NCBI GenBank assembly: GCA_017415455.1
Contig: JAFQGS010000106.1
Span: 1-37,433, forward strand
DNA: 37,433 bases
From: Prevotella sp.
GTDB lineage: Bacteria; Bacteroidota; Bacteroidia; Bacteroidales; Bacteroidaceae
Reading direction: 5' to 3'
Shown here: piece after piece, positions 11,294 through 22,608 of the stretch
Layout: each line of letters starts with the position of its first letter
Numbering within the stretch: position 1 is the first letter of the stretch
Notes under the pieces: generated by a model
Told to the model about the DNA's origin: nothing
The model's input: the letters and a program-made list of their open reading frames with translations, nothing else
The model's database searches: none
Position numbers and translations under genes: made by a program

Positions 11294-13117
11294 TTACCAC
11301 CACACTTGTTTGCCATCCTCAAATGTGAACGGTCGTTCTTCTGTTCCATCTGTATAGTCTCTCAACCAAAGTAAGGCATTGGATGGAACGTTGTCAAAAG
11401 TAAGTGAGTCTGTCCTGGCTATTTGTCTTCCCAATGATTTCCATTCCATGTCAAAATAGAACAATTCGTATTCATGTCCTTTTCTTATCATGTTCATATC
11501 GTGCCGCGGGCAGAACTCTATACAACCGATAGTGTCTCTGTTTTCTTTTCCCAAATCAAGTCCCACCCAATATCCATGTATGGCCTTCTGGGCATATGTC
11601 AGATAATTGTTGTCGAAAATATTTCTTACTGTTGAATCCGGCACATTGTAATATATTATTTCTCCTTTCAGAACCTTCTTTCTTTTACTGGTGAATACTT
11701 TTAATTCTGCTATTTCGGGTCTTTCGGCAGTTGTTGTCTGTATACGGATACACCTATATGGTCTGTCCAGTTTTAAAGGGATTTCCAATATTGATTCCGG
11801 AGGCGTGTTGAATGTATATACAACCTTTTTGTGTCTGAAAGTGGTGTCATCTGCTACTTCCACGGTGCTTCCCAACATCATTCTCCAACGGTTATACCAT
11901 TGCTTGCGCAAAGGATATTTACGCCAGATTGTTATCGCTTGTAATTTCTGATAGTCTGGTTTGAATGTATGTGAACGTCCGTTACCATCCAATATGAACG
12001 GATTACCGATGGAGTTTCTTTCCCCATTGTGGCAATTTAGAGGTAGATAAACCATTCTCCTTGGTAAATCTCTGAATGTCGTTTCATTAGCTTTTACTTC
12101 ACCTTCTGTCACAGCCTGCCATCCCCAACCTGTTTTGAATGCTGACAGATAAGCCTTTCCTTCATGTCGGTTAGGTAATGTTATACTGAGATTATAACCA
12201 TATTGACGGGAGACGTTTGCGGAAAAAGGAGCTTTTAATTCCTGTGGAATATCTTTGTCGTAATATGTTGATGATGATTGCTGCTTTTCGTAACATATCC
12301 GTTGTATAACAGGGGCTCTTTTTATAGAGTCCCACTGTTGATGAGGATGTATCAGTATTCCATTGTCGTTGAAACTCTCTCCGTCAATGCGGTTGAATTC
12401 TTTTGCTACAGAATCGTCCCCATATACCGTATGTGTCTTATTGTGGTTTACATACGCAGCCCATGAATGTCCGTTACTGCTATAGTTACCCCAGAAAGGA
12501 ACATAGTCGTATGCGGCAGGAATACCGAGTGCCCGCATTACAGAGACGATATAAATGCTTCGTTGGTCACAAGTGCCTTGATGTAGATGGTGCAGTGTCA
12601 TGGCATCAAGTGATAAATGCTTTGTAGAACCCAATTTGTTGAATTGTCTGATGATAATAGAGTGTACCTTTGCAAATGCTTCTATAGGGCTGTCTATACC
12701 CGTAATCAAATGGCTATATTCATTTCTTAGAGAGTCTCTCCAACAGGATAGAGGCTCGTTGCTTACCCTGTATGGAAGTATGAAGTGGCAGAATGTTTCA
12801 AAATCAACATCATCTTTCCATGCAGACTGTTTCCAACATTCGAATGCCAAATCAATGTCCCTTATCAAATAGTCTGCGGTGATGTGCTGGGCGTCATATA
12901 AAATACCGCTGTCCTTATGACAATAGTGGTACATGTTTTCAACCAAAAACATTGCAGCAGCTGATTTCAAAGAGTCTTCCTTGTAATGTTCCAGTACTTT
13001 GATAAGTTCACTTCGGTTTTCTCCTGCCATTTCCATGACTTCCCCGAAACGTTCATTGCACGAGATTATTAACTGCATAGTCAGCAATATAACGATGTAA
13101 GAATATATTTTTTGCAT
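11294..13117 (-). CDS. Lipoprotein with transglutaminase-like domain and C-terminal F5/8-type sandwich
   Basis: The 607-aa product begins with a lipoprotein signal (LIIS-C, Cys20), so it should be tethered to a membrane facing the periplasm or surface. A transglutaminase/cysteine-protease fold spans about residues 145-240, with Cys183 in GTCDQRS, His217 in GHSWAAY and Asp234 as the likely triad. The C-terminal part (about 450-600: PYRCIRIQTT, GYWVGLDLG) resembles a discoidin/F5-8 carbohydrate-binding sandwich. Bacterial proteins of this type can be proteases, amidases or crosslinking enzymes, so the name does not prove transglutamination. It is the last gene of the peptide operon, 23 bases after the O-antigen-ligase-like gene. 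Confidence 0.8.
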   Translation of the reverse strand: MQKIYSYIVILLTMQLIISCNERFGEVMEMAGENRSELIKVLEHYKEDSLKSAAAMFLVENMYHYCHKDSGILYDAQHITADYLIRDIDLAFECWKQSAWKDDVDFETFCHFILPYRVSNEPLSCWRDSLRNEYSHLITGIDSPIEAFAKVHSIIIRQFNKLGSTKHLSLDAMTLHHLHQGTCDQRSIYIVSVMRALGIPAAYDYVPFWGNYSSNGHSWAAYVNHNKTHTVYGDDSVAKEFNRIDGESFNDNGILIHPHQQWDSIKRAPVIQRICYEKQQSSSTYYDKDIPQELKAPFSANVSRQYGYNLSITLPNRHEGKAYLSAFKTGWGWQAVTEGEVKANETTFRDLPRRMVYLPLNCHNGERNSIGNPFILDGNGRSHTFKPDYQKLQAITIWRKYPLRKQWYNRWRMMLGSTVEVADDTTFRHKKVVYTFNTPPESILEIPLKLDRPYRCIRIQTTTAERPEIAELKVFTSKRKKVLKGEIIYYNVPDSTVRNIFDNNYLTYAQKAIHGYWVGLDLGKENRDTIGCIEFCPRHDMNMIRKGHEYELFYFDMEWKSLGRQIARTDSLTFDNVPSNALLWLRDYTDGTEERPFTFEDGKQVWW

Positions 13118-13140: not shown

Positions 13141-15114
13141 TTATTCTAATCTTGTTTTATACCACGCGGTGAACAGAAACCGGTAGTCATGTCTCAATAT
13201 TGTCTCAATATCAGGTTTCTCACGCAATTTAGGGTCTCCTTCGATGAAAATTCCTTGTTCCAGCAGATTCATCCGTTTGCGATATAGCATGCCCTTCTCG
13301 TCATTGCTTTTCTTCTCTTCGATAGCTGCCAGATTTCCCCATACACGAGAAAGATTGGGAAGTTGCTTGTTAGCCTGAGTCAGATATGTTTCAGCTAACC
13401 GCATGTCACCCAGCCGCAGGGCTATGCTGCCATATTTGGCAAGCTGTATTACATCTTTCGTGGCTGATTGGATGGAATCCCTCAATTTCATTTGAACATC
13501 ATTTGTCATCTTGAACTCTTTCTGCCGTAGTTCTTCCCAATAGCCCGTCTCCAACAGGGACGGATGCCGCAGTATGCACCTTGTCAGTTCGTTTGTCGCC
13601 TTGTCTGTCAATCCATCCTTTCTGTACCATTCATAGAGTGTCCAACGGAACAGAAGCCTGTCTGGATAGTCAGATGACAACGCTGCCAACCAGACAGTAT
13701 CTCCCATTTCCACCGCCTTGTAATAATGCAGTTGTATGTCCATCGGACTTTGCAGCAACGCCCTATCCAGAGTAGCTTTCGAATGACTGTCCAGATATTC
13801 CCTTATCAGGGCAGGGGTGCTCCCTGTGCTGTCGTGTCTCTGTCTGCAATAGTATAATCCAGTCCAGACAAGCAATGGAATTAAAGCAATAAGTCTCCGT
13901 CTTTTTGAGTCCTCAGCCTTGCCGCAGTCTTGCTGGACGTATGCCAACAGCAAGAATACTGACAGTTGGATGATTCCCGAATCATAAAAGGTGGGAAATG
14001 TCACCTCCTTGATGAGAAAGCCAAGCAGGAACGGGAAAATCATCCAATAGTTTCTTCTTTTTACACGGATCAGCCACACAAACACAGAAAGGATGACCAT
14101 AATATATAGGAACAGACCAGTATAACCTCCTTCAACCAAAGCCTTTGCCACGATGTTGCCCGCATAAGAGGTAAAACTGTCGCTTCGTGTCTCGCCTTGC
14201 CGGTAATAGTCGTTAGCGATAGTATAGTTTCCTTTACCCACTCCCCACGGATGGCTGTCTGTTACATCTTTTGCAAAGTCCACTGCCTCTAATCGTCCTG
14301 CGGTACTGCGTTGTTGGGATAGTGTCTCGTTCATGCAGAAGGTCTGTGCCACCTCTGCTCGGTATTGCCAACAGAGAAATGAGGTAAGCAGGACGAAGCA
14401 TCCGCCGACAATCCATCGTGACAATGATGATTGCCCGGATACAGATTTATCTTTTATAGACAATATGACAAGTGTCAGTATTCCGCAAATCAATACAGCA
14501 ATATATCCACCTCTTGAAAAGGACAACAATATGGTAGCCCACACCATCAGTCCAGCAAACAGACACAACAACCTGATGCGTTTATCTGTCGTTTGCATAT
14601 AAGTCAGCGTTATCAAACCACCCCACAGCCATTGCAGGGAATTCCATTCGTTGGAGGGAACTCCCAAGGGACGATAGAGGAACCTGAAATCATAGAGTGA
14701 AGCAAAACCGACATCATGTATGTTGTGGTCGAAGACACTGAACTGATAGAGAGCAGACAGTGCAAGCATCGCAACGCATATTGTCAATGTTTGACACAGG
14801 CTCTTACCTCCTGCCTGTCTCTGCACAAAGAGGCATCGCACTAAAAAATAAGCAGACAGACTGACTGCCATATCGGTAGCGCTCATCAACGAGCCGGCAC
14901 GGTTGACGGATGGGGAACAAAGCCCGTATCCCCACAGCAAAAGCAGAGCAATGTCAATGAGGGAGACACGTATCGGGAATTTCCACAGGCAGACAGACAA
15001 ACATATCGCCAAGGGTAGTGCGAACAGCAGTTCGGGATCTGGCACATGGAAGAACCGCATCATATAGGTTATGACCCATACGAAACAGATGCACACGCTC
15101 AAGCCTTTGCCCAT
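13141..15114 (-). CDS. O-antigen ligase/polymerase-like membrane protein with C-terminal TPR-like region
   Basis: I use the ATG at 15114, giving 657 aa and a 16-base overlap with the protease gene. The frame is open 87 codons further upstream, but that part runs inside the protease's coding frame. About ten hydrophobic helices fill residues 1-440. The Wzy_C family marks are present: SFSRGGY (residues 198-204) after a transmembrane helix, and HPWGVGKGNY (288-297) in the large periplasmic loop. Residues about 460-657 form helical repeats of TPR type. Family members transfer or polymerise glycan chains from undecaprenyl carriers at the periplasmic face. No LPS genes are nearby; the position inside a peptide-maturation operon is unusual and suggests a tailored acceptor or donor. 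Confidence 0.8.
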   Translation of the reverse strand: MGKGLSVCICFVWVITYMMRFFHVPDPELLFALPLAICLSVCLWKFPIRVSLIDIALLLLWGYGLCSPSVNRAGSLMSATDMAVSLSAYFLVRCLFVQRQAGGKSLCQTLTICVAMLALSALYQFSVFDHNIHDVGFASLYDFRFLYRPLGVPSNEWNSLQWLWGGLITLTYMQTTDKRIRLLCLFAGLMVWATILLSFSRGGYIAVLICGILTLVILSIKDKSVSGQSSLSRWIVGGCFVLLTSFLCWQYRAEVAQTFCMNETLSQQRSTAGRLEAVDFAKDVTDSHPWGVGKGNYTIANDYYRQGETRSDSFTSYAGNIVAKALVEGGYTGLFLYIMVILSVFVWLIRVKRRNYWMIFPFLLGFLIKEVTFPTFYDSGIIQLSVFLLLAYVQQDCGKAEDSKRRRLIALIPLLVWTGLYYCRQRHDSTGSTPALIREYLDSHSKATLDRALLQSPMDIQLHYYKAVEMGDTVWLAALSSDYPDRLLFRWTLYEWYRKDGLTDKATNELTRCILRHPSLLETGYWEELRQKEFKMTNDVQMKLRDSIQSATKDVIQLAKYGSIALRLGDMRLAETYLTQANKQLPNLSRVWGNLAAIEEKKSNDEKGMLYRKRMNLLEQGIFIEGDPKLREKPDIETILRHDYRFLFTAWYKTRLE

Positions 15115-16298
15115 CGTATCCGTCGGATTAAAGGTGACAATATCTTGTATGTCATGAAGAGGAACAGGAAGAAGAACAGCAGTTGCAGGATAATCTGCTG
15201 CATGTTGCTCCATGAAGGCATCTGCTGGTACGACAGTTCCGTCATTAACTGTAGGAAGCGATCGGGAAACGTCTTGTAGAAGTAGATGAAGAATTGTGGT
15301 ATCACATAGAAAAAGTAGAAGCAGAAAAAGATATTTACTACGATGGTGTATATAGCAAGCCCACATTTCGCCCAAGGAGATAGCGAGAGAATATAGGGAC
15401 GCACCGAAATCTCTTTGCCTCGTATTTTGTTAACAACGTATTTTATCCATTCGTTCCCTTTCTTTCTCAGATTAGCTACGCCTAATATGTCGGTCATCAT
15501 CCAATAACCGTCAAATTTGAAGAATGGGTTCAGTGTAAGTGCAAAGTTGAAGTTTATCAGCAGAATCATATAGTCCAGCAATCCGTTTCCGCCAATTATT
15601 GCTGCTGTGAGTAGCGGGATAAGCAGGAGCATTTGGAAATAGACACCGCCAAAGTTGACCACACATCGTTGTTGCCGAGAGAGTTTCCATACATGTGTCA
15701 CGTCAGTATAGAACACCGGCAAGTTCAGATACAGACCCAGTCCTATGTTCCCGTGCGGCACGCCGTAGTGTCTGCACGCTGCGGCATGGCCTATCTCATG
15801 CACCAACGAAGAGAAAGCCATGAAAAGGTAAAGCCCTGCTATCAGATAAATGCTGATTGGTGTCTGCTCCAGCAGGTCACGATAATGTAAGAAGTAAGCC
15901 GCTTCAAGTCCTGCAAACACTACCACCACTGCTCCCATCAGCCATGGACGGAATAGATTCTTCAATACTTCCGAATATTTTCTTAAGGTCGTAGCCGAAA
16001 TGAAATCCTTGTGATAAAGGAACGATTTCCTTTGGTCACCGTTGCTGTTCCTGCCCGATTCAAGCCGTTTCTCTAAACCATCCAAAAAACACACAATCTC
16101 CTCTTTAGATAGCATCCCTTTGTGCACTTCCGCATATCGGCTGATGCTCTCCTCGTCACCTCCATTCGCTTGCAGGTATTCAAGAAGTTTCGCAGTGTCT
16201 TTGCCTATCTCAAAGAAACGACCTTCCGTTTCCAACAAATAGGTGTCATGTCTGGAAGCAGTGGGGAATGGGCGGATAGTCAGTTGGCGCAGATTCAT
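15099..16298 (-). CDS. M50 (site-2 protease-type) membrane metallopeptidase with N-terminal PqqD-like domain
   Basis: The ATG at 16298 gives 399 aa and places the start one base after the stop of the upstream barrel gene; a start at 16334 would overlap that gene and adds no domain. Residues about 1-85 resemble a small winged-helix PqqD/RiPP-recognition domain (YLLETEGRFFEIGKDTAKLLEYL, then acidic helices). A membrane region follows with the zinc motif HEIGH (His167, Glu168, His171) and the partner motif N257-P...D263-G. Several more helices complete it. Such proteases cleave substrates in or at the inner membrane. Next to a rSAM maturase and a precursor, leader removal from the modified peptide is the likely task. 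The exact cleavage site is not known. Confidence 0.85.
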   Translation of the reverse strand: MNLRQLTIRPFPTASRHDTYLLETEGRFFEIGKDTAKLLEYLQANGGDEESISRYAEVHKGMLSKEEIVCFLDGLEKRLESGRNSNGDQRKSFLYHKDFISATTLRKYSEVLKNLFRPWLMGAVVVVFAGLEAAYFLHYRDLLEQTPISIYLIAGLYLFMAFSSLVHEIGHAAACRHYGVPHGNIGLGLYLNLPVFYTDVTHVWKLSRQQRCVVNFGGVYFQMLLLIPLLTAAIIGGNGLLDYMILLINFNFALTLNPFFKFDGYWMMTDILGVANLRKKGNEWIKYVVNKIRGKEISVRPYILSLSPWAKCGLAIYTIVVNIFFCFYFFYVIPQFFIYFYKTFPDRFLQLMTELSYQQMPSWSNMQQIILQLLFFFLFLFMTYKILSPLIRRIRWAKA

Positions 16299-16299
16299 A

Positions 16300-18615
16300 T
16301 TATTGTTCTGATATTGTCGTTTTGTTAACGTCAATTACTTGCGTATTGTCAAACTTATGTTTCTTCTTGCCATAGTTGAAGCGGTAACTTACGCCGAGTA
16401 TACCCCAATTATCATAGAAACGATGTCTTTTATTTACGACATATTGTTTGTATATGCCTAAATCAATTTCATCACGTCCTTCAAAACTGTAGGGATTACA
16501 ATATGCAATCCTGAAATTCCAGTTATCTATACTGTAAGAAGCACTCATGTCTATATTGACGGGATTACGAGTAATCCTACCTGTTTGGCTATCTATATAC
16601 TTAGGCTGTGTAAGAAAACCTATCCTTGCTCTCAGCCCTTTATTTTGATAAACAACATGTCCCATGCCATAGAGGGTATGGTGATAGATTGTTTCCCATA
16701 CTTTTATTTTGGTATAATCATAAAGTAATCCAGTGCGGATATACAAACGTTTAGGAATGATATTCCATTGAAGTGCTGTTTCATAGTGTTGCACCCAATT
16801 AGTACCACTGTTTTGCACTCGCCAGATTATGGCATTGCGATCGGCATCATAAGTGCATTTCTTATATATATAGTTAGTGTTTAGGTTGAGACTGCCATAA
16901 CATAACCAAGTGAAATACTTATTAATGTTCCATGTGTAGAAGAGTGACACGTTATAGTTCATGTAATCTTTCAGATCAGGATTTCCTTGCGTAATCTCAT
17001 ATTCATTATTTCTGTATTCATCACCAGTGCGGTTACTATTGCTTACCTCGCAACTTTTGGCTTCTCCTTGTAGATTGAACGAATGGTTCTTGTACATATA
17101 GGAGAGGCGGAGGGAGGGCGTAAGGAATAGGTTGGTTACCTCGTTACCACTTGTCTCTACATGTGAAATATGCCCGGCTATACGAGCTTGTAGGTTCAGG
17201 CGTTTCTTGATGCGGTAGTTGTATGTGGCATTTAGGTAGGTGTTGCTCTTGTCAAGCGATACGTTGTAGGTGTTTCCGCCACGCAGATTGAGGTTGGCTG
17301 TGTGGGTGAAGTCCTGACTGAGGTCAATGTTCAGAGATGACTTGTTCCTGAATGTTTTTGTATAGTTAACTTTGCCACTTCCGTAATAACTCTCCTCTGC
17401 TGTACTATTCCTGTAGGCATCCACCACAACACCGTCATCGCTGTATTCATACCAGCGGTCATAGTCGTTGTTACCATAGCTTCCATAAAATTCAGCACGT
17501 AGGCGTTGGTCATGAGGTAGAGTGCGGGTGTATTGCAATTTCAATCCCGGATTCAGTTTCTTTATCTGCTTGTGTTCCTGCATAGTGAGTAATGTGGGAT
17601 TGTTACTGTATTGCAGACTGTTCCTGTCGTCCTGTTCTGAGTCGTTATGATTCATTCGGAACGATACATAGAAGTTCTGTACTTTGTCGTTGTAGATATA
17701 GTTGACATACCCATTCAGATTGCCGGCGTTGATGTCAGAACGCAGACCCTTGAGTGTGCGTGTTACCGTCTCGTTTGGAAAATTATAGGTGCTAATCATA
17801 TATCCCTCGTCTTTCCAATTATTATTATTATATCCTCCTGAGACAGATACAGCGAATTCCGACTTCCCTTGAAAATATTGTGTGCTTATCCGTCCATTAC
17901 CCTTCAGGGATGTAAAATCATGGTTTGTATTGAAGGCTGTTGTGCCGGCATAGTCACGTTCCTTCATAACATAGTCTATTACAGCGCCAGCTTGCGGAAA
18001 CTCAGCTTTACCTTTAGGGTAGATGTCAACTCTTTTTATATATTTAGCATTCAGATCACGTACTTCATCTTGCGTGGCTTCTCGCCCGTTGATGCATAGC
18101 AATACCGTCTGGCTCATATAATTTATTGAATTGTTGAAAGTATTGACATTTAGTCCAGGTACCATCAAAACATCCAATGCACTGTATCCATCGTAGGCAT
18201 GGCGAAGTTCTTCTTTGGTGGGATATACCATCAGTTTGTCTTCAGTGCGCACCTGATTCTCGCTCAGAACGGTAACTTCTTGTATCTGCATAACATCCTT
18301 CTTCATAACGATGTCGCCCAAACGGATAGTTCTTTCCTTTGTCGGTTGGATTTTTATTGCCAGTTCTTTATAACCTAAGTAACTGAAGACGAGACGTTGC
18401 ACTTTGTCTGTTTGAGGTACCTGCAGCTTGAAGTCTCCATTGGCGTCTGTGATACATCCCTTTATGAAGGTGGAATCTTCAACGTAATAGCGCACGGTAG
18501 CAGATGTTAATTTGCTTTTCTCGGTATCTGTGACTTGACCAGTTATAATTAGATTATTTTGCCCTCTTAAAGAGTGGGCAAGCAATATAAACAAGACTGT
18601 AATTAAGACTTTCAT
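16300..18615 (-). CDS. Outer-membrane beta-barrel protein of the peptide operon (TonB-receptor-like)
   Basis: The 771-aa product has a signal peptide (MKVLITVLFILLAHSLRGQ), a carboxypeptidase-regulatory-like domain (about residues 22-110), a plug-like segment (GYSALDVLMVPGLNVNTFNNS, NGREATQDEVRDL, about 140-215) and a long barrel made of alternating Tyr/Asn-rich strands ending in a typical last strand. It is of the OMP_b-brl_3 / TonB-dependent type. It lies between the precursor and the M50 protease, so it may carry the mature peptide, or a molecule the peptide binds, across the outer membrane. Import versus export cannot be decided from the sequence. A large stem-loop separates it from the precursor gene. 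Confidence 0.85.
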   Translation of the reverse strand: MKVLITVLFILLAHSLRGQNNLIITGQVTDTEKSKLTSATVRYYVEDSTFIKGCITDANGDFKLQVPQTDKVQRLVFSYLGYKELAIKIQPTKERTIRLGDIVMKKDVMQIQEVTVLSENQVRTEDKLMVYPTKEELRHAYDGYSALDVLMVPGLNVNTFNNSINYMSQTVLLCINGREATQDEVRDLNAKYIKRVDIYPKGKAEFPQAGAVIDYVMKERDYAGTTAFNTNHDFTSLKGNGRISTQYFQGKSEFAVSVSGGYNNNNWKDEGYMISTYNFPNETVTRTLKGLRSDINAGNLNGYVNYIYNDKVQNFYVSFRMNHNDSEQDDRNSLQYSNNPTLLTMQEHKQIKKLNPGLKLQYTRTLPHDQRLRAEFYGSYGNNDYDRWYEYSDDGVVVDAYRNSTAEESYYGSGKVNYTKTFRNKSSLNIDLSQDFTHTANLNLRGGNTYNVSLDKSNTYLNATYNYRIKKRLNLQARIAGHISHVETSGNEVTNLFLTPSLRLSYMYKNHSFNLQGEAKSCEVSNSNRTGDEYRNNEYEITQGNPDLKDYMNYNVSLFYTWNINKYFTWLCYGSLNLNTNYIYKKCTYDADRNAIIWRVQNSGTNWVQHYETALQWNIIPKRLYIRTGLLYDYTKIKVWETIYHHTLYGMGHVVYQNKGLRARIGFLTQPKYIDSQTGRITRNPVNIDMSASYSIDNWNFRIAYCNPYSFEGRDEIDLGIYKQYVVNKRHRFYDNWGILGVSYRFNYGKKKHKFDNTQVIDVNKTTISEQ

Positions 18616-18630
18616 AAATTATTTAATTAA

Positions 18631-18698
18631 GAGGGGTCAAAATGAAGCGCCGCAGAAGTCTTAGCCCCACCTTTTAGGGCTTTTCATTTTGTCCCCTC
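18631..18698 (-). promoter_or_regulatory. Large stem-loop between precursor and outer-membrane gene
   Basis: The arms 18631-18646 and 18683-18698 pair at 15 of 16 positions, and a smaller gccc/gggc dyad (18664-18667 with 18677-18680) lies inside. Read on the minus strand it begins 8 bases after the precursor stop, and A/T-rich sequence (ttaattaaataattt) follows it, giving a weak terminator-like end. The likely effect is partial termination or protection of the upstream mRNA, so that the short precursor message is made in excess over the downstream genes. Confidence 0.7.
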
Positions 18699-18706
18699 CA
18701 AAAAAA

Positions 18707-18943
18707 CTATATATTAACACCGCAATTGGCACTATTTTTGCCACAATATGCAAAATTTTCATCACAGTGACCTGTGTTTACTTGACAGGAACCATAGTTT
18801 TCAGTACAACTTAAAGGCATAATTTCATCTAATAATCCTCCAACGGCTAATGGGTCTGTTTCCAAACGCATCTCTAACTCTTCAGCATACAGTGCTGGAA
18901 GTTCCTGATTCAAGGAACGAAGTTCTACTTTTGTTGTTTTCAT
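18707..18943 (-). CDS. RiPP precursor peptide with five Cys in a heptad repeat
   Basis: This 78-aa peptide has an acidic, helical leader-like N-terminus (residues about 1-40, with ELPALYAEELEMRLE and a Gly-Gly at 35-36) and a core in which Cys lies at 46, 53, 60, 67 and 74, exactly seven apart. Each Cys has Asn three residues later (49, 56, 63, 70, 77), and the first four heptads have Gly or Ala at position six (51, 58, 65, 72). The consensus is C-x-x-N-x-[GA]-x, the last unit being cut to five residues by the stop codon. No secretion signal is present. The gene starts 24 bases after a rSAM/SPASM maturase gene. This matches the precursor of a sactipeptide or ranthipeptide-like product. I cannot match it to a named family. 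Confidence 0.85.
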   Translation of the reverse strand: MKTTKVELRSLNQELPALYAEELEMRLETDPLAVGGLLDEIMPLSCTENYGSCQVNTGHCDENFAYCGKNSANCGVNI

Positions 18944-18967: not shown

Positions 18968-20299
18968 TTAATTATTAAAAATGGTGTAAGTCCTGTTGAT
19001 AGTATGATGTACTATTTCTTCTATATGCGCACATTGCTTGTTGTCCAACTGATGTGCAGGGCAACCACCGCGGCAGAGGAATGCATATTTGCATTTAATA
19101 CATCCTTCCATCACTATGGCGCAATTTCTCCATGTCTGTCTTACTTGATTGTTCCAAATGGTGTTTTCTTTGTTGTACATACCAAGTAGATGTTCTTTCT
19201 GATTGACAACTTCCCAACAAGGATAGATACTCCCCAATGGATCCATCACGAAACCTCTGTTCTGTGCTCCGCAGAATGACGTGCCCAATGAAATAGGCCT
19301 GTTTTGCCTGATGGCTGTAGATATCTTATTAGATAATCCATAGTCGTGATGTGAACATTTTACGCCAATGTCCTTAATTTGTTTGATATATTCTTTTTGG
19401 CTTAATATGTTTTGTGGTACTTTGCCTTCATCATGGTGCCTTAATAAGGCAGAATATATGTAAAACAATTTGTTTTCTGTGAATCCCTTTTCGGCAAATA
19501 GATGCTGTAATTCATTGAGCTGTTGAATGTTGTTCTTGTCTGTATTTACCCTGATGGATACGCTGACCTCATTTTTAAGAGCAAGACCTACATTCTGAAC
19601 GATTTTATTAAAAGTAGGTGTGCCACACCGATGTATTCGTTTTTGATTATGAAGATCTGGCATTCCGTCAATGGTAATTTGAAGATGGCAAATCTTGTCC
19701 GGCCCTAACAAGTCTTCATAAGCATCTAAATCATATCCATTGGTGATGGCGGAGAACTTAAAGCCATACTCCCTACCTTTTTCCACAAGGTAAGTGACGG
19801 CATCTTTGTTTTCTTTTAATAAAGGCTCTCCGCCATATAGTGTGATTGTGTTGTTGCGCAGTTTCTTCTCGGGTGCAATCTCCAAAATGGTTTTATAGAG
19901 TTTATCCGTCATTTCTTTAGTGAAAGTGGTAGTGTCCTTTTTTATACCTTTCTCAAAGCAATAGGGACAGCGGAAATTACAGTCGTAGGTGACAACCACC
20001 GTGAAATTGTTGTTGAGGATATTCTCTTTACGATATAGGGCATTTGCTAATCGTTTGGCATATTCCACCTCTTCCTCCTTGCTCCATTTTGTAATGTAGC
20101 CTCTTTTTTCTAAAGCCTCCACAGTAGTTTCAGAACATGGTATCTCCTCCTTGGAGAAATGAGAATGATTTTGCAGGTACTCCGCAATCTCTTTGCTGAG
20201 CACATCTATAGCTCCTGTATAACCATGCATCATAAATACATTGTCAGGCTCGCTTTCAAGGGGCACAACGATAGAGTAGGATGAAAAACGATAGTCCAT
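18968..20299 (-). CDS. Radical SAM/SPASM peptide maturase
   Basis: The ATG at 20299 (MDYRFSSYS) gives 443 aa and leaves 26 bases after the upstream gene; an in-frame ATG at 20356 would overlap that gene. Residues about 1-90 look like a PqqD-type peptide-recognition domain. The radical SAM core has C107-x3-C111-x2-C114 and GGEP at 156-159. The SPASM half is complete: C343-x12-G-x4-C361, then C400-x2-C403-x5-C409-x3-C413 and a last C423, the pattern for two auxiliary 4Fe-4S clusters. Such enzymes install thioether or C-C bonds on ribosomal peptides. The precursor lies 24 bases downstream and is the obvious substrate. Cys393 is extra to the motif. Confidence 0.92.
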   Translation of the reverse strand: MDYRFSSYSIVVPLESEPDNVFMMHGYTGAIDVLSKEIAEYLQNHSHFSKEEIPCSETTVEALEKRGYITKWSKEEEVEYAKRLANALYRKENILNNNFTVVVTYDCNFRCPYCFEKGIKKDTTTFTKEMTDKLYKTILEIAPEKKLRNNTITLYGGEPLLKENKDAVTYLVEKGREYGFKFSAITNGYDLDAYEDLLGPDKICHLQITIDGMPDLHNQKRIHRCGTPTFNKIVQNVGLALKNEVSVSIRVNTDKNNIQQLNELQHLFAEKGFTENKLFYIYSALLRHHDEGKVPQNILSQKEYIKQIKDIGVKCSHHDYGLSNKISTAIRQNRPISLGTSFCGAQNRGFVMDPLGSIYPCWEVVNQKEHLLGMYNKENTIWNNQVRQTWRNCAIVMEGCIKCKYAFLCRGGCPAHQLDNKQCAHIEEIVHHTINRTYTIFNN

Positions 20300-20325
20300 A
20301 ATCAGAATATATTGATAATATTCGT

Positions 20326-20703
20326 TTATATGACTGTTACAACCCCATAATAGCAAGTATTGCCATTGATAATTCTCAGTTCATATTCGCCTGAAAGATT
20401 GTTTGGTAATACCAACTCGTTTGTTCCCATAGGAATAACCAATTCATAACAGATGTTTTCGGCTTCATCTACAATCTGTAATGTGCAACCGTCGCATGGG
20501 GTGGCAAAGAATAATGTACTGCCATTGAAATAGATGGTGGGGATTGTTTCAGGGGTGCGAGGCCTTGAAGAACCAATGGGCAAATCTTTAATATAACCAA
20601 CCTCCAACTCTAATTGCTCGCCAATAAAATCAGGTTCTCCATTTGCAAACGACATCACCGACATCATAAGAATAATAATCGATAAAATTGTTTTCTTTTT
20701 CAT
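20326..20703 (-). CDS. Small secreted DUF3244-like protein
   Basis: The 125-aa product has a signal peptide (about residues 1-21, ending SFANG) and a short Ig-like beta-sandwich with the DUF3244 pattern: IPTIYFNGSTLFF, then TPCDGCTLQIVDE (Cys70, Cys73), and LSGEYELRIINGNTCYYG near the end. DUF3244 proteins are small Bacteroidales exported proteins of unknown function, often next to TPR-HTH membrane regulators, as here. It is the first gene after the promoter region and is 26 bases from the maturase gene, so it is likely made together with the peptide. It might be an immunity, chaperone or sensing factor; no direct evidence chooses among these. Confidence 0.75.
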   Translation of the reverse strand: MKKKTILSIIILMMSVMSFANGEPDFIGEQLELEVGYIKDLPIGSSRPRTPETIPTIYFNGSTLFFATPCDGCTLQIVDEAENICYELVIPMGTNELVLPNNLSGEYELRIINGNTCYYGVVTVI

Positions 20704-20865: not shown

Positions 20866-22608
20866 TTATAAGTGTCTGATATTAGAATCTAACGATTTTG
20901 TGCCTTCTTGATGGAACAACTTGTGGTTGATGTTTGTGCGGATGTTAGAAACAACTTGCTTGGAACACTCTAACAAGACCGCGATTTCTGATGGGGTAAA
21001 CCGTAGTTTAATAAGAATACAGACAATAATTTCTCTTTCTGATAGACCATGTTTTGATGCTGTAATATAATCTTGGAAAGTTGAAAGATGATGGGATGAA
21101 AGTTCTATAAGTTTTCTAAATTCAGTATCAGTAGCACATGTGCCTTTGCATGTTAAATTGTGAAGATTTTTAATCATATCACAGTTGAGCAGGTATTGCT
21201 CAGCATCCCATTCCTCTTTAATTCCTTTGCCATTGGTATAAAAAGCTAATTCTTGACGAAGATTTTCAGTCTCTTTTTCCTTTTCGGTCTTGAACTTGTT
21301 TATGTCGTCATTCAGCAATTGCAAGTCTTTCTCGGATTGATTGTATTTGTCTAAGGTCTCAAAGTATCTTGTGTTTAATTTCAGGAAGTCAGATTTTGTT
21401 TTTCGCCTATACCTTATTATAATATATGTCACTAAGGAAATGACGACTATGAATAAGATGCAACCTACAGCTATAGTGTTTTTGTATTTCTCTGCCTTTT
21501 GCTTCATCGCATCCGCCTGTCGCCTGCTTACATTATAGTTGTAAAGTGCGTTTGCTCTATTAATTTCCTCTGCAGAACTAATAAGGCATGCTGAGTCGTT
21601 GGCATTGGCAAAGAGTTGGGCGTATTTCATGACAGAATCAGGCTTGCCGAGTTTGTGGTAAGCTTCCATCAGACCTTTTGATGCGGCTTCAATGTTACAG
21701 ATATCTGATTGAAAACTTAATAGTTTTCTAAAATAAAAGCAAGCAGAGTCAATCATGTTTATACCTATAAAATATTGCCCTTTTCTATAATAATACATTT
21801 CATGTCCAGAAAGAATATCCCCATTATTATAGAATAAGTTTGACTTGGTTTCAAAATCATTCATTAATAGTTTTGCTTTGTCATATTCTTGCTTTTCCAA
21901 CAAATGACCAAATTGGATATGTAGAAAACCATACTTGTATTCAGATAGTTTATACTTGTCTAGGAGTTTGCATGCATTAACGCTGATAATATAAGCAGAA
22001 TCTTTATCTCTACTTAAACTATACACCCCTGCCAAATGCGCATAAAAATTCAAAGCAGACAAGGTGTCCTTGGCTTTCCAAGCCATGCGGATCGCATTAA
22101 GTTCTGCCTCTTTTTCAAATTGTGGTGAACGCTGATTATAAAACAAATCTGCCATCTGTCCATATATCCTACTCAGTCGTTGGAAGTCGCAGTCGGCACT
22201 TGTGGTATCGGCGAAGCTGACTGCATCATGATAGCACTCAAGGGCACGGGGTGCGTCGCCCATGTCGCGATAGGTGCAGCCGAGGAGATAGTGGGCGCGC
22301 ATGCGTTCCTGGGCTGTGCCGTGAGCGTCGTAGTAGGCTGTCACCTCACGCATCACGCTGTCTGTGGTGAAGTTGACATACGACTTGTTCTGTGCATCGG
22401 CACGCAGCAGCTCAAGGCGCATCTTTTGGCGTCGGCTCATCTTACCTGCAGCGCTGTCGTAAAGAGCGTTGAGAAGGGTTAGGGCAGAATCAGGCTTGTC
22501 TTTCATCAGACTGTCTGCCACGGCAAATACACTGTCGGCGCGGCGGTCACCGCAGCCGTGCATGCCAACAAGCACGCATAATATAATAAGGTGTAATAAA
22601 TATTTCAT
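20866..22608 (-). CDS. Membrane-anchored TPR protein with C-terminal HTH (DUF6377-like regulator)
   Basis: The 580-aa product has an N-terminal signal with a possible but poor lipobox (Cys19), TPR-type helical repeats at about residues 25-350, a transmembrane helix at about 378-400, a coiled coil at about 405-460 and a C-terminal LuxR/sigma-4-like helix-turn-helix (about 521-565: LSEREIIVCILIKLRFTPSEIAVLLECSKQVVSNIRTNI). This is the layout of Bacteroidetes membrane regulators that sense a periplasmic signal and act on nearby promoters. It is directly upstream of the peptide operon, so it probably controls it. Base composition shifts sharply inside the gene: lines near the 5' end are 53-60% GC, while lines around 21780-21900 are 23-28% GC. 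Confidence 0.8.
   Translation of the reverse strand: MKYLLHLIILCVLVGMHGCGDRRADSVFAVADSLMKDKPDSALTLLNALYDSAAGKMSRRQKMRLELLRADAQNKSYVNFTTDSVMREVTAYYDAHGTAQERMRAHYLLGCTYRDMGDAPRALECYHDAVSFADTTSADCDFQRLSRIYGQMADLFYNQRSPQFEKEAELNAIRMAWKAKDTLSALNFYAHLAGVYSLSRDKDSAYIISVNACKLLDKYKLSEYKYGFLHIQFGHLLEKQEYDKAKLLMNDFETKSNLFYNNGDILSGHEMYYYRKGQYFIGINMIDSACFYFRKLLSFQSDICNIEAASKGLMEAYHKLGKPDSVMKYAQLFANANDSACLISSAEEINRANALYNYNVSRRQADAMKQKAEKYKNTIAVGCILFIVVISLVTYIIIRYRRKTKSDFLKLNTRYFETLDKYNQSEKDLQLLNDDINKFKTEKEKETENLRQELAFYTNGKGIKEEWDAEQYLLNCDMIKNLHNLTCKGTCATDTEFRKLIELSSHHLSTFQDYITASKHGLSEREIIVCILIKLRFTPSEIAVLLECSKQVVSNIRTNINHKLFHQEGTKSLDSNIRHL

Follow-up and report, generated by a model that had tools for sequence, protein, structure and literature searches.

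A Prevotella precursor peptide with five Cys-x-x-Asn motifs at a seven-residue period beside a SPASM radical SAM enzyme, a candidate multi-ring thioether RiPP

INTRODUCTION

In the NxxcA/NxxcB system of Streptococcus, a SPASM radical SAM enzyme joins Cys to Asn across three residues through a thioether on the Asn β-carbon (PMC8326336 and PMC13361665, both in excerpt). According to the same excerpts, NxxcA carries a single ring, and its Asn precedes its Cys (Asn20-Cys23). Freyrasin, the ranthipeptide of the PapA/PapB system, contains several β thioethers per peptide, each running from a Cys to a downstream residue; the excerpted account gives a C-x3-D spacing with Asp or Glu as the acceptor and reports that PapB accepts C-Xn-D with n from 0 to 6 (PMC9413430). 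Both the Asn thioether of NxxcA (Cys23-Asn20) and the Cys-Asp thioethers of freyrasin are described as S-C-β in the available part of PMC8326336. Streptosactin (GGG), also streptococcal, has two four-residue thioether rings in one peptide, formed by links to α-carbons (PMC13361665, in excerpt). For the Bacteroidales, the accessible portion of a RiPP survey stresses PCAT clusters (PMC10352776).

Here we analyze a contig of 37,433 nucleotides from Prevotella sp. (NCBI GenBank assembly GCA_017415455.1, contig JAFQGS010000106.1), referred to throughout as the window. It encodes a small Cys-rich precursor next to a SPASM-type enzyme. The product that we propose would resemble NxxcA in a Cys-Asn thioether across three residues, freyrasin in carrying several links to downstream residues, and streptosactin in having more than one four-residue ring. 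The locus differs from NxxcA in its five serial motifs with Asn after Cys, the core reading Cys-x-x-Asn and not the Asn-x-x-Cys order of NxxC RaS-RiPPs. It differs from freyrasin in its Cys-X2-Asn spacing, and its product would differ from streptosactin in the carbon most likely to accept the sulfur.

RESULTS

A precursor with a heptad core

The precursor is encoded on the minus strand at 18707..18943, has an ATG start and comprises 78 residues; a 70%-identical homolog adjoins an orthologous maturase in another Prevotella MAG locus (G523, the same as L033). The ORF translates as MKTTKVELRSLNQELPALYAEELEMRLETDPLAVGGLLDEIMPLS-CTENYGS-CQVNTGH-CDENFAY-CGKNSAN-CGVNI. Residues 1 to about 45 (ELEMRLETDPLAVGG) form the leader, as judged from an alignment of the leader family (alignment A2), and residues 46-78 form the core. 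As the preliminary description of this DNA had stated, Cys is at positions 46, 53, 60, 67, and 74, Asn follows at +3 of every Cys (5/5), and a secretion signal is lacking: by eye, the leader is charged and has no hydrophobic signal stretch. Direct reading, shuffles, and a pattern scan delimit the repeat with its stop codon at 18707..18808 (minus strand), as four C-x-x-N-x3 heptads followed by C-x-x-N-I. The Gly/Ala preference claimed for heptad position six holds in the window, where the complete heptads have G, G, A, and A, but only for 3/5 complete heptads in G523, the other two having Tyr and Ser.

When residues 46-78 were put in random order with composition kept, equal Cys spacing arose in 120 of 200,000 trials; with the Cys fixed, every Cys had Asn at +3 in 10 of 200,000 shuffles of the same residues. 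At the DNA level, a pattern of two consecutive C-x-x-N heptads matched the window four times, always within the precursor ORF (0.18 matches expected), and 0 of 100 shuffles reached four matches. The shuffles and the G523 relative rule out a chance repeat. Codons vary between repeats, as had been noted: any two of the four full heptads agree at only 9-14 of 21 bases, and both Cys codons (TGT and TGC) and both Asn codons (AAT and AAC) are used. A recent tandem duplication at the DNA level was set aside on these grounds. A precursor search of the window's own genome (91% complete) returned one copy. The five-Cys, period-seven C-x-x-N precursor next to a SPASM enzyme is thereby confirmed as a real feature.

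Conservation in the nearest relative

The maturase of G523 is 77% identical to that of the window, and its precursor has six heptads, with Asn at +3 in 6/6. Comparison of the two precursors, with one G523 heptad left out, showed identity at 38/45 leader positions, at 10/10 Cys and +3 Asn positions, and at 8/23 other core positions, so Cys and Asn are kept as the residues around them drift. C-x2-N at period seven with a changing number of copies, which had been put forward as a check, is thus found in one relative (six copies versus five), but other relatives use other spacings; the Cys/Asn heptad is confined to these two among the 49 Cys-bearing precursors that we tabulated.

This conservation bears on a reading in which the enzyme performs epimerization, C-C linkage, or backbone chemistry and the Cys stay free, available to bind metals or form disulfides. 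Metal binding is a known property of some Cys-rich repeats. SPASM enzymes, for their part, perform several chemistries (PMC11002830, in excerpt). We regard this reading as distinctly unlikely, as both Cys and Asn are kept at every repeat of the two heptad peptides. The heptad cores also have no conserved aromatic residue of the kind that cyclophane enzymes need, and cyclophane chemistry was set aside for that reason.

A SPASM radical SAM maturase

The maturase is encoded at 18968..20302 on the minus strand (444 aa from ATG; an ORF opening with TTG at 20356 would give 462 aa). The earlier identification of this neighbor as a SPASM-type radical SAM protein was borne out by matches to PF04055 (52.5 bits, cut-off 29.5) and TIGR04085 (57.8 bits, cut-off 27). 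In alignments of 22 maturase sequences (alignments A1 and A3), the motif CNFRCPYC and Cys 344, 362, 401, 404, and 410 are invariant, and Cys 414 and 424 are nearly so. The nearest sequence with a solved structure is 5wgg (E = 1.8e-27), named as CteB in the accessible portion of PMC10352776.

The top profile matches of the maturase are RiPP SPASM families, and the 25 of 59 matches listed include the thioether formers PapB and SCIFF. Among these 25 of 59, every specific peptide-maturase model scored far under its cut-off: TIGR04463, the best match, gave 150.9 bits (cut-off 525), CefB 133.3 (cut-off 600), Clo7bot TIGR04334 130.2 (cut-off 600), the PapB family NF047865 115.5 (cut-off 340), and SCIFF TIGR03974 83.2 (cut-off 425). 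With scores this low, the chemistry of the enzyme is not readable from family membership. The PapB profile matched 8/8 maturases scanned. The position of a SPASM enzyme by Cys-rich cores, the PapB and SCIFF matches, and 5wgg as the nearest solved sequence point to radical thioether formation.

A leader family with varied Cys spacing

A BLAST search with the precursor matched 11 of 299 genomes of the genus: the window's own, three convincing relatives (G523, G671, and G515), and seven with weaker matches (E = 0.006 or worse). A leader profile matched 4/398 genomes of the genus, 3/393 of the order, and 2/395 of the class, and the maturase was found at E ≤ 1e-60 in 8/399 genomes of the family, the window's own genome being included in each count. 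From a named genome collection we kept the best 80 of 139 maturase relatives. By reading, 36 of these 80 loci (L033-L065, L095, L107, and L111) are of the window's type; they are mostly from Bacteroidota, with a few MAGs labeled Ignavibacteria, Gammaproteobacteria, Balneola-type, and Kryptoniota. A precursor with a conserved leader and a variable core was present in 32/36 (alignment A2; L064 judged by eye). The shared leader motif is ...LExRLETDPL..., which in the window reads ELEMRLETDPL.... The other 44 loci come mainly from Firmicutes and Spirochaetia, and their maturases are 28-34% identical. The recognizable precursors beside some of these 44 maturases, which we take to be Nif11-like, do not contain the C-x-x-N pattern.

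Homologs that retain the leader and lose the Cys/Asn period had been named as evidence against the original proposal, and such homologs exist. The other 47 Cys-bearing precursors place Cys every 3, 4, 5, 6, 9, or 12 residues, or irregularly, with Tyr and Asn still enriched at +3 (see below); by maturase, the next relatives are from Xylanibacter (two Cys) and Marseilla (seven Cys, one per four residues). The varied spacings mark the heptad as a local design and rule it out as the family signature. Of the 49 precursors, 24 have an even and 25 an odd number of Cys. This split argues against disulfide pairing and is a further point against an enzyme of other chemistry.

Several loci had unusual arrangements. 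Different precursors stand in arrays behind one maturase in L039 (11458-13072, six precursors, often with Leu at Cys+3) and L054 (11508-13134, four precursors). In Phocaeicola coprocola (L040 11357-11509, the same as L027 1059-1211), leader and maturase are kept and the precursor ORF stops before any Cys, possibly a decayed core. In L025 (11624-11998, minus strand), a 125-aa ORF runs from a short maturase remnant in frame into a precursor, adjoining a second precursor and a second outer-membrane-type gene; this looks like a rearranged, duplicated cluster. A related cassette, with a maturase 36% identical to that of the window, lies at about 13796-18787 of an 18.8-kb plasmid (L127, CP061010.1) of a Muribaculaceae isolate. 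The plasmid is typed as mobilizable, so such clusters may move; the precursor core of the cassette, CFTCTLCFTCGEFL, is almost the same as in Paraprevotella L060.

Residue preferences around Cys

With the two heptad peptides set aside, the other 47 precursors (32 loci) contain 216 Cys, and we compared the residues at offsets -7 to +8 of these Cys with shuffles that kept Cys places and composition (228 residue/offset cells, each with at least 4 expected). The two strongest cells were Tyr+3 (19 seen versus 6.1 expected; corrected P < 1/2000) and Asn+3 (31 versus 14.4; corrected P = 0.0005), followed by Pro+1 (P = 0.0025). The same two led with one precursor per locus (Tyr+3, 16 versus 4.8, P < 1/2000; Asn+3, 21 versus 8.3, P = 0.001); Pro+1 was then no longer significant, and Ser+4 was marginal (P = 0.05). 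Under a stricter null, in which 48 precursors (L064 added) were shuffled only from the first Cys onward, Tyr+3 was still first (P < 1/4000), and Leu-3 (z = 4.63) outranked Asn+3 (z = 4.17, P = 0.012), with Pro+1 (z = 4.09) and Leu+3 (z = 4.03, P = 0.02) close behind. How far Asn itself is singled out at +3 thus depends on the null chosen. As the loci are related to one another, the sequences are not independent and all these P values are optimistic, which the one-per-locus runs lessen but do not remove.

The counts leave out the L004/L040 precursor, which has no Cys; the L127 plasmid precursor, which has a non-ATG start; short peptides without Cys in L118 and L119; and a second precursor of G515, with C-L-K-D, C-N-I-D, C-K-E-R, and C-T-L-N, whose 125-aa ORF includes a maturase remnant. 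L064 enters only under the stricter null, and the counted row L058 is cut by a contig end. A first look had covered 47 rows, including the no-Cys precursor and without L117, which is in the counts. Targeted residue sets, including Asn-4 and Asn-3, were picked after that first look; the all-residue tests correct for this.

Instead of marking the acceptor site, the enrichment may reflect how the core is recognized or structured, which would be compatible with another ring topology. Leu at both +3 and -3, Pro+1, and Ser+4 are also raised, and Leu-3 stands above Asn+3 under the stricter null. We consider this reading unlikely, given that Tyr+3 and Asn+3 are the two strongest cells whether all precursors or one per locus are counted.

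A further reading keeps the thioethers and changes their topology, with Cys joined to Asn at -4 or in nested hairpin links. Asn is present at -4 of Cys 2-5 in the window, and nearly all known sactipeptides are hairpins, as stated in the excerpt of PMC8326336. The first Cys, however, has Met42 at -4 in the window, as had been pointed out, and -4 pairing fails for the first Cys of G523 as well. Among the 47 other precursors, Asn-4 is near expectation (15 versus 13.4) and Asn+3 is doubled, which agrees with the original preference for +3 over -4. Rings of another topology thus seem highly doubtful. Asn-3, which would correspond to the NxxC order, was not enriched in these precursors (11 versus 14.6).

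The main rival shares the topology of Cys(i) to residue i+3 and places the sulfur on the α-carbon, as in sactipeptides. Streptosactin, with its pair of four-residue sactionine rings, offers a precedent in the excerpted PMC13361665, and α-carbon chemistry needs no special side chain. It would therefore tolerate the varied +3 residues of the family, in which many Cys have K, Q, G, or A at this position. Against it, the +3 position is enriched in Tyr and Asn and poor in Gly, Ser, Thr, Pro, and Glu (z = -2.5 to -3.8 for these five under the stricter null, lower tail uncorrected), which suggests that the acceptor side chain matters; the profile matches of the maturase also include PapB and SCIFF, which form non-α thioethers. 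We judge a sactipeptide-type product to be unlikely.

The residue at +3 varies by locus. N, Y, F, W, or H at +3 exceeds expectation in 23/31 scorable loci and shows no excess in 8/31. In L107, C-F-V-N, C-V-F-N, and C-I-F-N follow one another with a period of twelve, which shows that C-x-x-N can occur apart from the heptad; L057 has C-x-x-[F/Y] at 5/6 Cys; and the +3 residues of the L012 core, which has period 4, are Y, H, D, Y, Y, Y, and N. Enrichment of Tyr and Asn across such varied spacings suggests that a three-residue step is favored in the family while Cys spacing is free. Asp, an acceptor in freyrasin, was at expectation at +3 in both the 47- and 48-precursor tests. With Asp not enriched and Leu enriched, a pure "activated β-carbon" rule (Asn, Asp, and aromatics) is weakened.

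Comparison with named peptide families

The preliminary description knew of no named family with this repeat. This stands insofar as no Pfam model matches the window precursor, no NCBIfam model matches it at E ≤ 1, and none of 34 precursors scanned against NCBIfam gave a match better than E = 0.01. Nor did the titles and abstracts of the open-license papers among the matches listed describe the leader family. Two named families, however, show related patterns with other spacings: Clo7bot (TIGR04333) and CefA (NF038108).

Clo7bot peptides include cores with C-G-T-N-S-G and C-G-T-Y-S-G. On one plasmid, +3 was Asn in 10/36 and Tyr in 10/36 (six of eight Cys-bearing peptides, two near-duplicates left out), a signal that is suggestive and not significant after correction. 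Clo7bot differs from the window in its short leader of the MKFIKKPARKFEEG kind, its irregular Cys spacing, and its nearby ABC transporters, and TIGR04333 does not match the window precursor. CefA, of the CefA/CefB system, likewise has a long Cys-periodic core, with C-G-A-D-A motifs and Asp at +3 in 13/28 in the one CefA analyzed, where the strict period lets other offsets score nearly as high as +3. It differs in its period of five (seven in the window), its Ala/Gly-rich composition, its length of 679 aa, and its gammaproteobacterial host; the CefA model does not match the window precursor. This CefA (L129 1873-3912, NZ_AP019784.1) shows a lectin-like match at its N-terminus, has 28 Cys in its core, and adjoins a radical SAM C-methyltransferase and a 2OG-Fe oxygenase. 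Since precursors of the Clo7bot and CefA types are served by maturase families among the best profile matches of the window's maturase, a shared Cys-x-x-acceptor habit is possible.

Gene neighborhood

On the minus strand, the genes run in the order TPR protein, small secreted-type protein, maturase, precursor, outer-membrane-type protein, M50-like protein, Wzy_C/TPR protein, and transglutaminase-like protein. The TPR protein (20866..22608), a possible regulator, also has a weak BT3442-family match, and similar genes occur in some relatives. The small secreted-type protein upstream of the maturase (20326..20703, 125 aa) matches DUF3244 weakly, below cut-off; tblastn found no match to it at E ≤ 1e-3 in the 84 loci searched, and its membership in the cassette is doubtful.

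The outer-membrane-type protein (16300..18615, minus strand, 771 aa) has a CarboxypepD_reg-like N-terminus (PF13715 and PF13620), and genes resembling it occur in many Bacteroidales loci. In Paraprevotella, a MacB-type ABC exporter adjoins the cassette (L026 3185-5100, on the same contig as L042), and L042 gave no match to the window's outer-membrane protein; by eye, genes at L117 13461-18606 look similar to the Paraprevotella exporter region.

The M50-like intramembrane metalloprotease (15099..16334, minus strand; TTG start, with an ATG at codon 13) is a candidate leader protease with the motifs HEIGH and NPFFKFDG, found by eye. Its matches to daptide_HExxH (E = 1.4e-28) and LiaK/YydH (E = 3.8e-12) fell short of the cut-offs, and its match to Pfam M50 was weak. 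Its gene was matched in 28/36 window-type loci and 2/44 other loci; the eight window-type loci without a match extend at most about 4.5 kb past the maturase. Next are an O-antigen-ligase-like (Wzy_C) membrane protein with a TPR tail (13141..15375, minus strand; PF04932, 50.5 bits, cut-off 31.7), found also in relatives and probably starting near 15114 by comparison with L022, and a transglutaminase-like, lipoprotein-type protein of 607 aa (11294..13117, minus strand; PF01841, 24.2 bits, cut-off 23) with homologs in Bacteroidales loci.

Just 3' of the precursor stop, before the outer-membrane gene, the minus strand can form a strong hairpin (18630..18699; MFE -30.4 kcal/mol, z = -3.74, 0/200 shuffles as good), a possible attenuator between the precursor and the later genes. 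Stems of different sequence also lie past several other precursors (e.g., in L033, L035, L045, and L057; energies without shuffle control), as if readthrough into later genes were limited.

Unlike the PCAT clusters stressed in the excerpt of PMC10352776, the window showed no C39 domain among nine proteins scanned; one cluster of that survey may be of the window's type. GG occurs within seven residues after ETDP/ETKP in 14/49 precursors, including the window's and not G523's. A defense system was set aside: of five window proteins compared with PADLOC, the maturase alone gave a match, which was to viperins and lay in the radical SAM core. Viral origin was set aside on three weak viral matches. 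As to plasmid origin, an unsystematic look noticed nothing mobile in the window; one related cassette, that of the Muribaculaceae isolate, lies on a plasmid.

DISCUSSION

We favor, with a probability of roughly 0.55, the reading of this locus as encoding a RiPP in which a radical SAM enzyme forms a series of four-residue thioether rings, Cys(i)-Asn(i+3), probably S-C-β. Such rings are favored by the Asn-β precedent of NxxcA, the Cys-Asp links of freyrasin, and the tolerance of PapB, as far as the excerpted accounts describe them. We infer the thioether chemistry, the β-carbon, leader binding and cleavage, and every biological role as follows. The leader (ELEMRLETDPL...) would be bound by the adjacent SPASM enzyme, which would link every core Cys through its sulfur to the Asn at +3, most likely at the Asn β-carbon. 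The product would be a string of five separate four-residue thioether rings, seven residues apart; the calculated monoisotopic mass of the full precursor, 8551.99, would fall to 8541.91 with these five links. The leader would then probably be cut off by the M50-type membrane protease of the same gene run, by analogy with daptide and epipeptide proteases, whose models it matched below cut-off. For the outer-membrane, Wzy_C, and transglutaminase-like proteins, a part in export, anchoring, or a final modification step is probable.

A broader proposal is more tentative, and we lean against it at present: one Bacteroidota maturase lineage may follow an "i to i+3" rule with Asn, Tyr, and perhaps Phe, His, or Leu as acceptors, the Cys being freely re-spaced (4, 5, 6, 7, or 12 residues). 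If true, this would yield programmable ladders of identical four-residue thioether rings, aromatic (Tyr) acceptors included; we know of no ranthipeptide precedent for Tyr acceptors.

If the +3 rule is right, ring positions would be predictable from precursor sequence alone in a RiPP family that no curated NCBIfam model covers and whose members come mostly from host-associated Bacteroidota, with a few from MAGs of other phyla. The recurrent gene set of maturase, precursor, and M50-like protease, often with Wzy_C and transglutaminase-like proteins, offers a means of finding further clusters. Native maturase-precursor pairs could separate ring size set by the enzyme from spacing set by the substrate, and the natural cores already sample both ring spacing and acceptor type, which bears on the design of multi-ring peptides. 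From these comparisons, the heptad peptide appears to be one design within a family that varies its Cys spacing and tends to keep the three-residue step.
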